36,988 nucleotides of DNA, from positions 1 through 36,988 of IMG/VR virus record IMGVR_UViG_3300042691_026848, one strand, 5' to 3'. The position numbers and the translations under genes are program-made. Below are positions 25,416 to 36,569 of the stretch, in pieces. The stretch's first letter is position 1. Each line of letters starts with the position of its first letter. This DNA comes from a virus. The notes beneath the pieces were generated by a model. That model saw only the letters and a program-made list of their open reading frames with translations, made no database searches and had not been told where the DNA came from.

Positions 25416-26404
25416 TATTGGGCCTCCTCTGCTACAGCCACGTCGAACAAACCGGGCTGATCTGCTGCCAAGCAATGCGGGGAAAACCATATCACCTCCC
25501 GTCCCGCGTTTTCGCGGCCACGACCATCTGACTGAGAACCGTATCCGCCGTGTGCTTTCCAACGATGCACGGACCAATCGGCGGGGAAGTCGTGTTCCCC
25601 GTCGTAGCCACAGACCGCAATGCGCATCAGTGGGTTGCCGCCGTTGGCAATGGCCCAGCGGACAACGTCATGGGCGACGGTTAGGCTTTCTTGGTTATAG
25701 ACAGTTTCACTTCTATCCGCATTGGCGCTGTATGGCGGGTCAAGGAATACCCCGGTCAGACCGTGCTTGTGCGTGACTGAATCCCCACAAACCCGCGACC
25801 AGTCACCGCACGCAACACGGACACGCCGCAGCCTTGCCGCCAACGCTTGCAACCACGATGGGACGTCTGCCTTTCTGTGCACACCCTGGCCGGCATTCCC
25901 AAGGTGGGGCCGTTGACGCGAGACACCCCGCCCCGCCTCAGCCCCACGCATCCACCCACTTTCGCCCCACGTCCACCCACCGTTGCCCGAGCACCAGCCC
26001 GAGCCGATCCATGAACAGAGACCCCAGCACCACCACCCCGCGACCTGCGCGTCATAAAAGAACGGGTCGCCGTCGCACCGTTCGATGCGTCGCGCTCCTT
26101 CGTTGATCAGCCACAGATGCCGCGCGGTCAGGTCGGTTTCGTTCACCGGCCAATCGACATGGCGCGCGACTGCCTCGGGATCGGCTGCAACCGCTCGCCA
26201 GAAGTTGGCAACGTAACGGTCCTTGTCGTTGACCGTTTCCGTTCCCGGAACGCCGGGCCGCGCCAGCAATACCGCGCCAGAGCCGAAAAACGGCTCGACG
26301 TAGTTTGTCACGTTGCCAAATCGTTGCCAAACGTCAGCAGCGACGCGCGACTTGCCGCCAAACCATGGGAACGGGGCTTGCAGTGGGGTCGCGGATGTCG
26401 TCAT
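25415..26404 (-). CDS. dam: DNA adenine N6-methyltransferase (D12 class)
   Basis: 329 residues. It has the three diagnostic motifs of class D12 adenine methyltransferases: PFPWFGGKS (motif X, residues 11-19), YVEPFFGSGAVLL (motif I, SAM binding, 35-47) and FLDPPY (motif IV, catalytic, 220-225), in the alpha-class order. A Trp/Gly-rich insertion (residues ~123-170, including the WCWGLCSWIGSGW run) lies where the target-recognition domain is expected and is unusual. It would methylate adenines in phage or host DNA, protecting against restriction or altering gene control. The sequence does not show its target. Confidence 0.9.
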   Translation of the reverse strand: MTTSATPLQAPFPWFGGKSRVAADVWQRFGNVTNYVEPFFGSGAVLLARPGVPGTETVNDKDRYVANFWRAVAADPEAVARHVDWPVNETDLTARHLWLINEGARRIERCDGDPFFYDAQVAGWWCWGLCSWIGSGWCSGNGGWTWGESGWMRGAEAGRGVSRQRPHLGNAGQGVHRKADVPSWLQALAARLRRVRVACGDWSRVCGDSVTHKHGLTGVFLDPPYSANADRSETVYNQESLTVAHDVVRWAIANGGNPLMRIAVCGYDGEHDFPADWSVHRWKAHGGYGSQSDGRGRENAGREVIWFSPHCLAADQPGLFDVAVAEEAQ

Positions 26405-26406
26405 GA

Positions 26407-26898
26407 TTAAGCCTTAATACCCATGCGGGCCATAAACTGCCGCGCGGTGTCTGCCATCGTCGGCGGTGCGGCGCTGTCCGTCACTTGTGGCAATGCCTTG
26501 TCGCGCGCCAGATGGGACAGCAGCGATAGTGCGCCTTGTTCTTGCATCAGGCGGCGCCGCGTCGCGTCGGACAGATCATTTGCGCCCATGACACCGGCCT
26601 GTATAGCCTTTGCGCCTCGTGACGCAGTGCGGCGAATGCGCTTGCGGGCCGTCTCCCCAATCGTGGGGATTTCCTCGGCCGGCAGCCGGCGGTAGCCCTG
26701 GGATCGGACGCTAGAAAAGACAATGCCTTGTTCCGATTGCAACTGTCGGGTCGCGGCATAGAGCATCCAGCGGTTTCGATTGATCGGCAGCCCGATGGCG
26801 TCGCTTATCGCTTCAAGCGTCACAATCTCGCCAACTGGGGTGGCCTGTAGCATGGCCTTCAGCTTGATGACTTCCGCTCGGGTTTCGGTGGCGATCAT
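26407..26898 (-). CDS. winged-helix-like protein preceded by a pentamer leader
   Basis: 163 residues from ATG 26898 (AGGA ~9 bases upstream). Residues ~20-75 look like a winged helix (GEIVTLEAISDAIGLPINR, RWMLYAATRQLQSEQGIVFSSVRSQGYRRLPAEE), followed by a basic RKRIRRTASRGAKAIQ and a helical C-terminus. It belongs to a widespread group of uncharacterised phage proteins often near recombination genes. Its leader is element A (26911-27126), directly before the ribosome-binding site. The gene is 2 bases upstream of the methylase. Confidence 0.65.
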   Translation of the reverse strand: MIATETRAEVIKLKAMLQATPVGEIVTLEAISDAIGLPINRNRWMLYAATRQLQSEQGIVFSSVRSQGYRRLPAEEIPTIGETARKRIRRTASRGAKAIQAGVMGANDLSDATRRRLMQEQGALSLLSHLARDKALPQVTDSAAPPTMADTARQFMARMGIKA

Positions 26899-26910
26899 AG
26901 GCTTGATCCT

Positions 26911-27126
26911 GTGTTGTGGTATGTCGTGGGGTGTTGTGTCGTACGGTGCAGTGATGTGGGGCGTCGTGAGTTGTCGTGTCGTGCTGGGTCTCCCAGGCCA
27001 AGCCCGGAGTCGTACTCCGGGAAGGGTCCGAGGGACCTGTTGTGTTGTGGTGTGGAGTGCCGTGCGGTGTCGTGGTGTGTAGTGGGGTGCTGTGTTGTGA
27101 TGTGCGGTGCGGTGTCGTGGTGTGCT
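26911..27126 (-). repeat. pentamer-hairpin-pentamer leader element A
   Basis: Read on the plus strand: 15 pentamers GTGNN (26911-26985; 11 exact GTG), a 51-bp core (26987-27037), then 17 uninterrupted GTGNN (27042-27126). The core has three triloop hairpins in a row: 26987-26999 (5-bp, one G-T pair), 27003-27021 (8-bp CCCGGAGT/ACTCCGGG) and 27025-27037 (5-bp GGTCC/GGACC), joined by AAG and AAG. The period of 5 rules out coding. The element lies in the leftward 5' leader of the 163-residue gene, so the RNA form would be CACNN arrays. Confidence 0.85.
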
Positions 27127-27129
27127 GCA

Positions 27130-27717
27130 TCATCCGCCGGACGTGGCGTCTTGCCAGTCCAGGCGGACAATCCTGAAACGCCCGTTAGTCCCGCCGTTCT
27201 GAGGACGGAACTGTCCAAGCCCGATGAACAGGCCGGCCTTTTCGAGCATGTCCGTCATCACCTGCCGCGTGATGATCGGGTCTATGACGTAGATTTGGAA
27301 CTCGGATCGCCATCCCGTGGGGATGATCGGGAACCGGCGCGCGACGCGCTTCCCGCTTCCTCGCACGCCGTCGGAATTGGCACTGATGACGATATGCCCG
27401 ACTGACTCGGGATCAATGTTGAGGCGTGGCGATTCCATTAGCATGATCCCAGCTTGGAATTTGGCGGTCCACGTCGCCTTGCCTTGCCCCGGGATTTGCT
27501 GCTTGGAGTATTTCGCCGCCGACACCAAAGCCTGATGGACCGCAACGGCGGGGATCACGATACTCTTGCCGTCGTCGCTTGTGTTCAGCTTGCTGCGCCA
27601 CGTCCTCATGTCGTAGGCGTCGGCCAGTTCGCCGGCCAGCTTCGGGTCAGAGTGCATCTTGCTCTGCGTCATCGGGGAAATTCCCTCAATGGCAACGGTG
27701 GCAATGGTTACGTCCAT
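27130..27717 (-). CDS. RAMP-like (Cas7/Cas5-type) phage protein of unknown function
   Basis: 195 residues, bracketed by elements A and B. The pattern resembles the RAMP fold (RRM-like, RNA-binding, as in Cas5/6/7): an opening strand (VTIATVAIEGISPMTQSK), then IVIPAVAVHQALVSAAKY (residues 53-70, compare RAMP IPGSSLKGAL), then RVARRFPIIPTGW, and a glycine-rich loop AGLFIGLGQFRPQNGGTNGRF (161-181). This family is common in tailed phages, but its function is not established as far as I know. The RAMP link is my inference from the motif order. A ssDNA-annealing accessory protein near RecT is the main alternative. Confidence 0.55.
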   Translation of the reverse strand: MDVTIATVAIEGISPMTQSKMHSDPKLAGELADAYDMRTWRSKLNTSDDGKSIVIPAVAVHQALVSAAKYSKQQIPGQGKATWTAKFQAGIMLMESPRLNIDPESVGHIVISANSDGVRGSGKRVARRFPIIPTGWRSEFQIYVIDPIITRQVMTDMLEKAGLFIGLGQFRPQNGGTNGRFRIVRLDWQDATSGG

Positions 27718-27722
27718 GGTGT

Positions 27723-27936
27723 GTCCTGTGTTGTGTTGTGGATTGCGGTGTCTTGTTGTGGCGTGGGGTGTAGTGTTGTGAAGTGGCGTCTTCCCTGGTC
27801 TCCCAGGCCAAGCCCGGAGTCGTACTCCGGGAAGGGTCCGAGGGACCTGTTGTGTAGTGTTGTGGAGTGCCGTGCGGTGCCGTGATGTGTAGTGAGGTGC
27901 TGTGTCGTGTTGTGTTGTGTTGTGAAGTGCCGTGAC
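27723..27936 (-). repeat. pentamer-hairpin-pentamer leader element B
   Basis: This is the second copy of the element: about 14-15 pentamers GTGNN (27723-27796, several degenerate), an identical 51-bp core (27797-27847) and 17 uninterrupted GTGNN (27852-27936). It lies in the 5' leader of the RAMP-like gene, ending ~6 bases before its ATG (27717). Against element A the right arm has 0 of 51 GTG bases changed but 17 of 34 NN bases changed. Confidence 0.85.
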
Positions 27937-27948
27937 GGAAACTCTGTT

Positions 27949-28276
27949 CTATCCCGGCGGCATTGCCTCTCCCGTCACCTCCAGGATCGGCTCAGGCGGC
28001 GGGACGTAGGCGCGGATCAGGGTGAGCGGGCGTTGCCCGACACGTTTAGCCGTTTCCCCGCATTCCAAACGAAGCCGATACTTTCCCCAGGATATACTTC
28101 TTGCTCGTAAATCCCCCACGCGCCGCCGCGTGTAACCCAAGCCGTCGCGACAACCTCCACCCACCCATCCGGCGGGCGCCGCTCGCCACGAAGCCGCAGG
28201 ATTTCGGCCCGCAGGACAGCGGACACGCTGCCGGACGGGCGGTTTCGGCTGTTGTCAGTGCTTCGTCGATTGTCAC
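27949..28276 (-). pseudogene. small gene apparently broken by two frameshifts
   Basis: Translation can start at GTG 28276 (overlapping the RecT stop, with GGAG 7 bases upstream) as MTIDEALTTAETARP, but coding-like sequence continues in a second frame (VLRAEILRLRGERRPP, then GWVEVVATAWVTRGG and YEQEVYPGESIGFVWNAGKR) and then a third (LTLIRAYVPPPEPILEVTGEAMPPG, stop 27949). Each step is a -1 shift in the same direction. The likely explanation is two single-base deletions or sequencing errors; programmed frameshifting is less likely because no slippery heptamer is visible. No family is recognised. Confidence 0.5.
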
Positions 28277-29121
28277 GGCACATCTCCATCAGGCCCCGGC
28301 CAGCCGTCACCGGCCGGCGCGGTCCGCTCCATCGCGGCGTTAAGCATGTCTTGCAGTTGCCGCCGTGGCCCGTCAGGCCAGCCGTCGAGAGCTTTCTGGA
28401 CGCGCGCATGGGCAATGATCGCGTCCACGTCGTCGGCAGTCATAGCGGCGTCCAGCGCGGCTTGCGTGGCCGTCAGAAACTTCTTAACGGTGTCGGCATT
28501 GTCCATCGTCAACACCGGCTCAACCGGCGCGGCGGGCGCCTCGGCAGTCGCTTCGATCGTCGGGCCAGAAAATGCGTCGGGCGGCGTGCCGTCCTCGGCC
28601 ATTTCCTCGCGTGAATAGACGCCAAGCATGACGGATGGAACCCACAGACGCGCCCACACCCGCGCACCGTGATAGGCAAGCTGTTGGTCGGGTTGCTTGG
28701 TCCACAGCGGGTTATCAGTGCGAGCATCGGCCCACCGGACGCGCACTTCGCGCGGGCCGTCGTCACCGACACGGCGGGCTGAAACGATGACCATACGATC
28801 GGGGCCGGCACCCTCGAACTTGTAATCCAGGTGCCCAATAATCGCGCCAGATGTTTGGACAGCCGCCGCGACAAGCTTGCCCTCGAACATCAACTTGCCT
28901 TTGATGACGCTGGTGCATTGCGCCACAGCAAACGGCGACATACCCCAACGCATCGCCTGTTCGATCACAAGCAGGCAATCGGCCGGCGCGTTTTGCAGGT
29001 GGCTGGGGACAAGCCGCCCCTTGGCCATGATTCCCGCCAACGCCATCGCCTGATCGAGATTCGCTGGCATCAGCGAATTAAGCGCCGGCACCGCCGGCCG
29101 GCTTTCGGTTATCGCGTTCAT
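28273..29121 (-). CDS. recT: RecT-family single-strand annealing protein
   Basis: 282 residues. The core matches phage RecT proteins: LDQAMALAGIMAKGRLVPSHLQNAPADCLLVIEQAMRWGMSPFAVAQCTSVIKGKLMFEGKLVAAAVQTSG, then LDYKFEG, VRWADARTDNPLW, QLAYHGARVWARLWVPSVMLGVYSREEM. The length and the acidic C-terminal extension are normal. It would anneal complementary single strands in phage recombination and replication. No partner exonuclease is seen adjacent. It overlaps the Gp157-like gene (ATGA) and the next gene (GTGA). Confidence 0.85.
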   Translation of the reverse strand: MNAITESRPAVPALNSLMPANLDQAMALAGIMAKGRLVPSHLQNAPADCLLVIEQAMRWGMSPFAVAQCTSVIKGKLMFEGKLVAAAVQTSGAIIGHLDYKFEGAGPDRMVIVSARRVGDDGPREVRVRWADARTDNPLWTKQPDQQLAYHGARVWARLWVPSVMLGVYSREEMAEDGTPPDAFSGPTIEATAEAPAAPVEPVLTMDNADTVKKFLTATQAALDAAMTADDVDAIIAHARVQKALDGWPDGPRRQLQDMLNAAMERTAPAGDGWPGPDGDVP

Positions 29122-35779: not shown

Positions 35780-35803
35780 AGGGGTGCCGGTGCCTTTTCA
35801 ACG

Positions 35804-35855
35804 CCCCTTCAACGCCCCTTCAGCCCCTTCAAAACCCCTTCAAAAACCCTTCAAG
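35804..35855 (+). repeat. iteron-like cluster 1 (CCCCTTCA repeats)
   Basis: Consecutive direct repeats CCCCTTCAACG (35804), CCCCTTCAG (35815), CCCCTTCAAAA (35824), CCCCTTCAAAAA (35835) and CCCTTCAAG (35847), mostly with an 11-base period. A partial unit precedes at 35792. They overlap the possible N-terminus of the 261-residue gene. Direct repeats of ~11 bp next to a replicative helicase are typical of replication origins bound by an initiator. Confidence 0.65.
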
Positions 35856-35870
35856 TCGTCAGGACTAACG

Positions 35871-36569
35871 ATGCCCAGTCCCAATGTTAGCGACAAACCC
35901 GTCAAACGTCCCACCGGACGGGATTTGCCCCTTCAAAACCCCTTCAAAACCCCTTCAAAAACCCTTCAAGTGCCCCCTTCACCGAACCCCCCGGCTCGGC
36001 ACTGTATCCCCCCCCTTATAGGGGGGGATACAGTGACCTCCCGGGTGCCGGCGCTAACGGTTGATCGGGTAGGGGGTGGGGTTAGTGCGACAGAGGCGGC
36101 AAACGGCGTGCGCGCGGGTTACGAACCGGCAGAGTGGATCGACCCCGAGGACGGAAACCCCAACCGCCGAACTGCCCGGCGCGTTCGTGGCGTGCGTCGG
36201 GTCGATCCAATAGCCGTCCTGGCCAGGAGCAACCCGGCCAAGTGGACGGCTGTCAGGGTCGGAGCGGCCCATCAGCTGGTGCGGCTGTGGTCCCTAGCCC
36301 AGCCCCCGGCCCGGTCGCTGGCCGGTGGATCGGGCGGCGGGAACGGCGATCGGGGAGCGGTGGCACGGCTGCATGCGTCTACGCGGCTTAGGATCGCGCT
36401 CCAGGCCGTTGGGGACCGGTGGTCCGGGGTTGTGGTGGGGGTCGCCATCGAAGGCCATTCCTTGGCCAACGTAGCGGATTCTATGCGTGTGCGAGAGGCG
36501 ACGGTGTCCGACATGCTGGCCGAGGGGCTGGATCGGGCGGCGGATTTTTTTGGTCGTGGGCGAAAATAG
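35871..36569 (+). CDS. origin-region protein with sigma4/HTH-like C-terminus
   Basis: 232 residues from ATG 35871, chosen because CAGGA lies 7 bases upstream; earlier in-frame GTGs at 35784 and 35790 would give 261 or 259 residues. The first ~60 codons contain the second iteron cluster and a large palindrome. The folded part (residues ~95-230) ends in LRIALQAVGDRWSGVVVGVAIEGHSLANVADSMRVREATVSDMLAEGLDRAADFF, a helix-turn-helix of sigma-region-4 style also found in DUF6456 proteins. By analogy with lambda O, an initiator whose gene contains its own origin, it could bind the repeats. Confidence 0.6.
   Translation: MPSPNVSDKPVKRPTGRDLPLQNPFKTPSKTLQVPPSPNPPARHCIPPLIGGDTVTSRVPALTVDRVGGGVSATEAANGVRAGYEPAEWIDPEDGNPNRRTARRVRGVRRVDPIAVLARSNPAKWTAVRVGAAHQLVRLWSLAQPPARSLAGGSGGGNGDRGAVARLHASTRLRIALQAVGDRWSGVVVGVAIEGHSLANVADSMRVREATVSDMLAEGLDRAADFFGRGRK
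35928..35970 (+). repeat. iteron-like cluster 2 (CCCCTTCA repeats)
   Basis: CCCCTTCAAAA (35928), CCCCTTCAAAA (35939), CCCCTTCAAAAA (35950), CCCTTCAAG (35962). Positions 35939-35970 are an exact 32-base copy of 35824-35855. It lies in the N-terminal coding part of the 232-residue gene, encoding PLQNPF/KTP-like peptides. It is the strongest marker of a candidate origin. Confidence 0.7.
36000..36035. repeat. 15-bp perfect palindrome with C/G tracts
   Basis: CACTGTATCCCCCCC (36000-36014), loop CTTATA, GGGGGGGATACAGTG (36021-36035): a perfect 15-bp inverted repeat lying inside the coding frame (HCIPPLIGGDTVT). Its length and proximity to the iterons suggest a cruciform or regulatory site at the origin. 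There is no T-run on either side, so it is not an intrinsic terminator. Confidence 0.7.

Follow-up and report, generated by a model that had tools for sequence, protein, structure and literature searches.

A locus within a 36,988-nt stretch of viral DNA (IMG/VR record IMGVR_UViG_3300042691_026848, analysed here over its full length and referred to as the window) is very probably a VIPR: a leftward operon for the proteins Vipr and Vap and for at least two vrRNAs, in each of which 17 CACNN units precede a 3′ tail with two hairpins. VIPR (Viral Interference Programmable Repeat) is a phage RNA-guided DNA-recognition system presented in a 2026 preprint (PMC13142463). Its components, as given there, are Vipr, the accessory protein Vap and vrRNAs with 9–16 YNNGG repeats and a structured 3′ tail. 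Within the vrRNA a constant triplet, GGY (GGC or GGT) in the characterised types, alternates with a hypervariable NN. The NN pairs read dsDNA in a gapped code in which one base, mostly the codon wobble base, is skipped per step, and the system represses competing phages and satellites (PMC13142463). We regard the locus in the window as a CAC-triplet variant of this system, which had been described months earlier.

Other genes of the window include those for terminase, portal, head closure and DNA ejection proteins, an integrase, RecT, Gam-like and repressor-like proteins and primase/helicase. This gene set suggests a podovirus-like phage with a temperate lifestyle. Phages of Roseobacter, Rhizobium and Caulobacter are among the best-scoring helicase matches, and the phage of the window is probably one of Alphaproteobacteria. 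The leaders have no DNA match and the window Vipr no protein match in the GenBank phage collection. Two further repeats are present in the window: an 11-bp tandem repeat in two runs (TTCAAAGCCCC / CCCCTTCAAAA; 35797–35854 and 35928–35969) beside the primase-helicase genes, which is either iteron-like or a coding repeat, and an imperfect 21-bp tandem repeat at 25941–25988 in an adenine methyltransferase gene.

The locus was singled out by an original prediction of two leaders, each with 17 GTGNN units and a hairpin core, and this description holds. Exactly 17 uninterrupted GTGNN units occur on the plus strand at 27042–27126 and again at 27852–27936, and each array abuts a 55-nt core which is 100% identical (55/55) in the two copies. 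Counting overlaps, the window has 25 six-unit GTGNN runs compared to 0 in 100 dinucleotide-preserving shuffles. Past each core the 5-base register is kept by a degenerate array, which reaches the start of a leftward gene; the end of each leader is the Shine-Dalgarno region of that gene (ORFs of 163 and 195 aa). The features, in window coordinates and all on the minus strand, are:

27852..27936, minus: upstream of vipr, putative guide (NN) tract of vrRNA B (17 CACNN units, reading leftward)
27797..27851, minus: predicted structured 3′ tail of vrRNA B, 55 nt, same as tail A
27728..27787, minus: degenerate CACNN array of 12 units with 10 triplets intact, from tail B to the vipr ribosome-binding site
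27130..27717, minus: vipr, encoding a 195-aa RAMP protein, between the two leaders
27042..27126, minus: directly past the vipr stop codon, putative guide tract of vrRNA A (17 CACNN units, reading leftward)
26987..27041, minus: predicted structured 3′ tail of vrRNA A, 55 nt, same as tail B
26911..26985, minus: degenerate CACNN array of 15 units with 11 triplets intact, from tail A to the vap start
26407..26898, minus: vap, encoding a 163-aa homologue of the SUSP1 vipr-accessory protein

Only 3 bases separate the end of the leader A array from the vipr stop codon. Tail B is predicted to form two hairpins, GGUCC/GGACC and CCCGGAGU/ACUCCGGG. The NN bases do vary, as had been noted: between leaders A and B all triplet positions are identical (51/51) compared to half of the NN positions (17/34; Fisher p 7e-13), so that the NN change between the copies while the triplets and the core stay fixed. 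Since the tail-proximal units of guides A and B are recognisably homologous, the two leaders would probably have arisen by duplication, followed by divergence at NN. No match at or above the gathering score was obtained in the window with Rfam 15, and a lax Rfam search of 26890–27970 gave sub-threshold matches only. No sigma-70-like promoter was detected in 26300–28400.

The gene between the leaders is a vipr, as indicated by its profile match to SUSP1 Vipr, its RAMP-fold model and the presence of a SUSP1 vap homologue as the next gene. The 195-aa protein matches no Pfam or PADLOC family and its sole PHROG match is PHROG 4652, a family of unknown function. As a single sequence it has a weak match to the solved "SUSP1 Vipr protein" (E 0.13). 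A profile of 34 related Viprs retrieves PDB 36pp_D, "SUSP1 Vipr", with E 5e-7, and hhalign places this profile against SUSP1 ALH47069 with 96% probability and 23% identity over the aligned part. The AlphaFold model (pLDDT 95) has a predicted Cas7/Csm3 RAMP fold, and the best structural matches are with Cas7/Csm3 chains of types VII and III (Foldseek E 1.7e-8; Z 13.7). The earlier suggestion that a RAMP-like protein lies next to the arrays is upheld. A conserved stretch, GLGQFRPQNGG, looks like the RAMP glycine-rich loop. The Vap profile matches the gene directly after vipr in SUSP1 with 93% probability.

The closest published counterpart is the type II VIPR of Escherichia phage SUSP1 (PMC13142463, PDB 36pp). 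Both loci include a Vipr RAMP homologue directly followed by Vap, vrRNAs flanking vipr, pentamers composed of a fixed triplet and a variable NN, and a structured 3′ tail on the vipr strand. Direct reading of the SUSP1 locus shows its GGY arrays on the strand that encodes vipr, with the tail following them on the 3′ side. The window differs in having CAC instead of GGY as its triplet, 17 repeats instead of the 9–16 reported, a different two-hairpin tail and, between tail and start codon, a second, degenerate array not seen in SUSP1; sequence identity between the two Vipr proteins is also low. For the triplets of other types the preprint allows "a related consensus", and it puts VIPR forward as a possible ancestor of CRISPR RAMPs (PMC13142463). 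The window protein shares its fold with the Cas7/Csm3 RAMPs of class 1 CRISPR systems (Z up to 13.7 with type VII/III Cas7-like chains), but the guide is a pentamer array rather than repeats and spacers. There is no CRISPR repeat-spacer array in the locus and no Cas family was recognised by sequence among the neighbouring proteins scanned.

A scan for at least 8 GTGNN units returned 115 pieces of viral contigs. Vipr or Vap is encoded in 43 of the 48 contigs with variable GTGNN arrays compared to 7 of the 63 with near-constant arrays, which are ordinary tandem repeats. The original prediction would have been refuted by homologous phages lacking the array, and these counts show the reverse. Five contigs with variable arrays (L009, L010, L042, L044 and L091) have no recognised Vipr or Vap in the piece covered and are possibly other Vipr types or truncated loci. 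Profile scanning identified 354 Vipr relatives in viral contigs (80 of which were kept) and 14 in genomes, the nearest of the latter being in Alphaproteobacteria. An unbiased period-5 scan of the relatives revealed arrays of CGC, CAC, CTC or GAC, always on the vipr-sense strand, and some loci include up to a dozen arrays each (L159). The array triplet tracks the Vipr tree, with 7 changes compared to 22.4 in shuffles (0 of 200 shuffles were as low). Such agreement is expected if Vipr reads the triplet, although relatedness alone also contributes to it. Tiny sense-strand ORFs with a Shine-Dalgarno-like stretch occur in the inter-array linkers of several relatives (L158:3647-3857, L170:266-322, L125:3837-3897 and L050), encoding MSRPRPP*, MPRPRPP*, MPRSPPL* and MPEPTPP* (7 codons) or MNSG* and MDSS*. 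Their translation may help define guide ends.

One guide from a relative could be decoded. Guide 3 of the Paracoccus litorisediminis locus (L125:4568-4642), written as an NNx pattern without the tail-proximal AA units, which are apparently constant between guides, matches 26 sites when up to 3 mismatches are allowed, and these are spread over 23 of the 125 Paracoccus genomes searched. These sites fall in one gene family and are homologous copies, so that the count overstates their independence and is statistically close to one event; we estimate that about two independent matches at 3 mismatches are expected by chance in that much DNA. The reversed pattern has 0 sites in the 125 genomes, and of the other skips, 0 nt gives 1 site, 2 nt gives 0 and 3 nt gives the array itself only. 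The sequence is the same at nearly all sites and translates as IYTRKSSEEGL from the opposite strand. At the one site examined, this stretch opens the resolvase domain of a serine recombinase gene and the skipped base is the third (wobble) codon position. For this decoding, the contrast between skips and the phase relative to codons weigh more than the number of sites. In this wider clade, the resolvase domain of serine recombinases is likely a natural target. For guides A and B of the window, skips of 0–4 gave no excess over shuffled guides in 1.1–1.6 Mb of collected loci; exact 8–10-unit patterns occurred in 0, 6, 3 and 76 IMG/VR contigs, none extending beyond chance; and matches were at chance level or absent in 385 genomes from the class to which the relatives' hosts belong and in 397 from their order. 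The peptide decoded from the part shared by the two guides, [DE]PR[SP][VIM]Y[GSR]L, or its complement, was found in the collected loci only in short, probably non-coding ORFs. Such a negative outcome would be expected should the host and its phages not have been sequenced.

The leaders had initially been compared to the RNA target of TRAP, and proposed to be a control element of an undescribed kind. TRAP recognises (N)AGNN, a triplet plus 2-nt spacer. The window RNA shares this format, for which an oligomerising RNA-binding protein is the probable reader, and this part of the comparison stands. TRAP itself does not: the triplet is CAC/GTG and not NAG, the two copies differ in their NN, the adjacent gene encodes a RAMP, and no TRAP family match was found among the neighbouring proteins scanned. 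A broader version is a cis-acting mRNA element: the CACNN leader would be bound by a protein that forms a ring or filament, which might be Vipr itself, and vipr and vap translation would be under the control of this protein, a function that could coexist with a guide role. The arrays do lie in 5′ leaders running into the Shine-Dalgarno region, in many relatives the arrays directly before genes carry no tail after them, and a triplet-binding RAMP would coat its own leader. Yet the dozen arrays that some relatives have in one locus exceed the needs of a leader switch, the decoded guide of the Paracoccus relative matches a mobile-element gene, and the NN diverge next to frozen triplets and a frozen core. 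We consider such an element unlikely. TRAP-like control as the best reading was set aside on the Vipr RAMP and Vap neighbours together with this pattern of divergence. An undescribed kind of control element is not supported either, given the vipr and vap genes, the diverging NN and a layout which is that of published VIPR guides. The 17-unit arrays are most likely two guide RNAs rather than a control switch.

Which strand constitutes the RNA was addressed with the linker hairpins of four relatives (L159, L161, L169 and L180), since the two cores of the window are identical and hence offer no variation between them. All 19 pairs are formed (100%) in eight sequences, four pairs with two-sided changes. 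The same-strand test on these tails gives 8 G-U and 0 A-C cells on the vipr-sense strand, and therefore the sense strand is the RNA in those loci. MFE comparison of the strands over all linkers is uninformative, because most unstructured linkers fold better as GU-rich antisense, and the strand call uses covarying stems only. It is very unlikely that the vrRNA is instead a GTGNN transcript of the opposite strand, in which the degenerate array would come first and the core would follow at its 3′ end. GTG is closer to GGY in composition, the core folds well on that strand too (-33.1 compared to -29.9 kcal/mol on the vipr-sense strand) and a weak terminator-like site, not above chance, is present on the plus strand. 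However, SUSP1 vrRNAs are on the vipr strand (PMC13142463), the G-U pairs of the relatives fit the sense strand only, the published order of perfect array then tail appears on the sense strand, and the arrays fall between the stop and start codons of the sense operon. Given the covariation in relatives and the SUSP1 layout, the window vrRNA is most likely on the vipr strand, as predicted for leaders of the leftward genes, with CACNN as its repeat; it should be 5′-(CACNN)17-hairpin-hairpin. A simple pentanucleotide tandem repeat, or an element acting at the DNA level (origin, packaging or recombination site), can practically be dismissed: about half of the viral contigs with at least 8 GTGNN units have near-constant arrays without Vipr, but in the window the NN are highly varied within each array and a vipr gene lies between the arrays.

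As a VIPR, the leftward operon would produce Vipr, Vap and at least two vrRNAs. Vipr subunits would polymerise along the vrRNA, presumably one per CAC triplet, leaving the NN exposed. Each NN would then pair with two bases of target DNA and skip the third, such that a guide reads positions 1 and 2 of successive codons, and the bound complex would act as a repressor of genes in competing phages or prophages. What the present data contribute to this scheme are the anatomy of the locus, the homology of Vipr and Vap, the RAMP fold predicted by the model, NN that are hypervariable where triplet and tail stay fixed, and the decoding rule for one guide of a relative. Of the VIPR hallmarks, the window has a Vipr homologue, triplet/NN pentamers, a structured 3′ tail and an adjacent Vap, with CAC where characterised types have GGY.

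The downstream degenerate arrays are not accounted for by the published VIPR architecture. Each may be a guide that has decayed, a guide that lacks a tail or a site where Vipr coats its own message; the last would keep part of the TRAP-like idea alive, at low probability. It is conceivable, though doubtful, that the triplet is an interchangeable code switched several times across Vipr lineages (CAC, CGC, CTC, GAC and GGY) and that the tail-less array, being fused to the vipr/vap mRNA, allows Vipr to coat that mRNA, the same repeat then serving as an autoregulatory leader as well as a guide.

The constant triplet differs between Vipr clades and is not fixed at the GGY of the characterised types. 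With clade-specific triplets one can examine which residues of Vipr recognise the triplet, and whether the guides of different clades are orthogonal. The Paracoccus guide, which follows the same gapped code and points to a serine recombinase gene, supports a role in mobile-element warfare beyond the phages tested so far.
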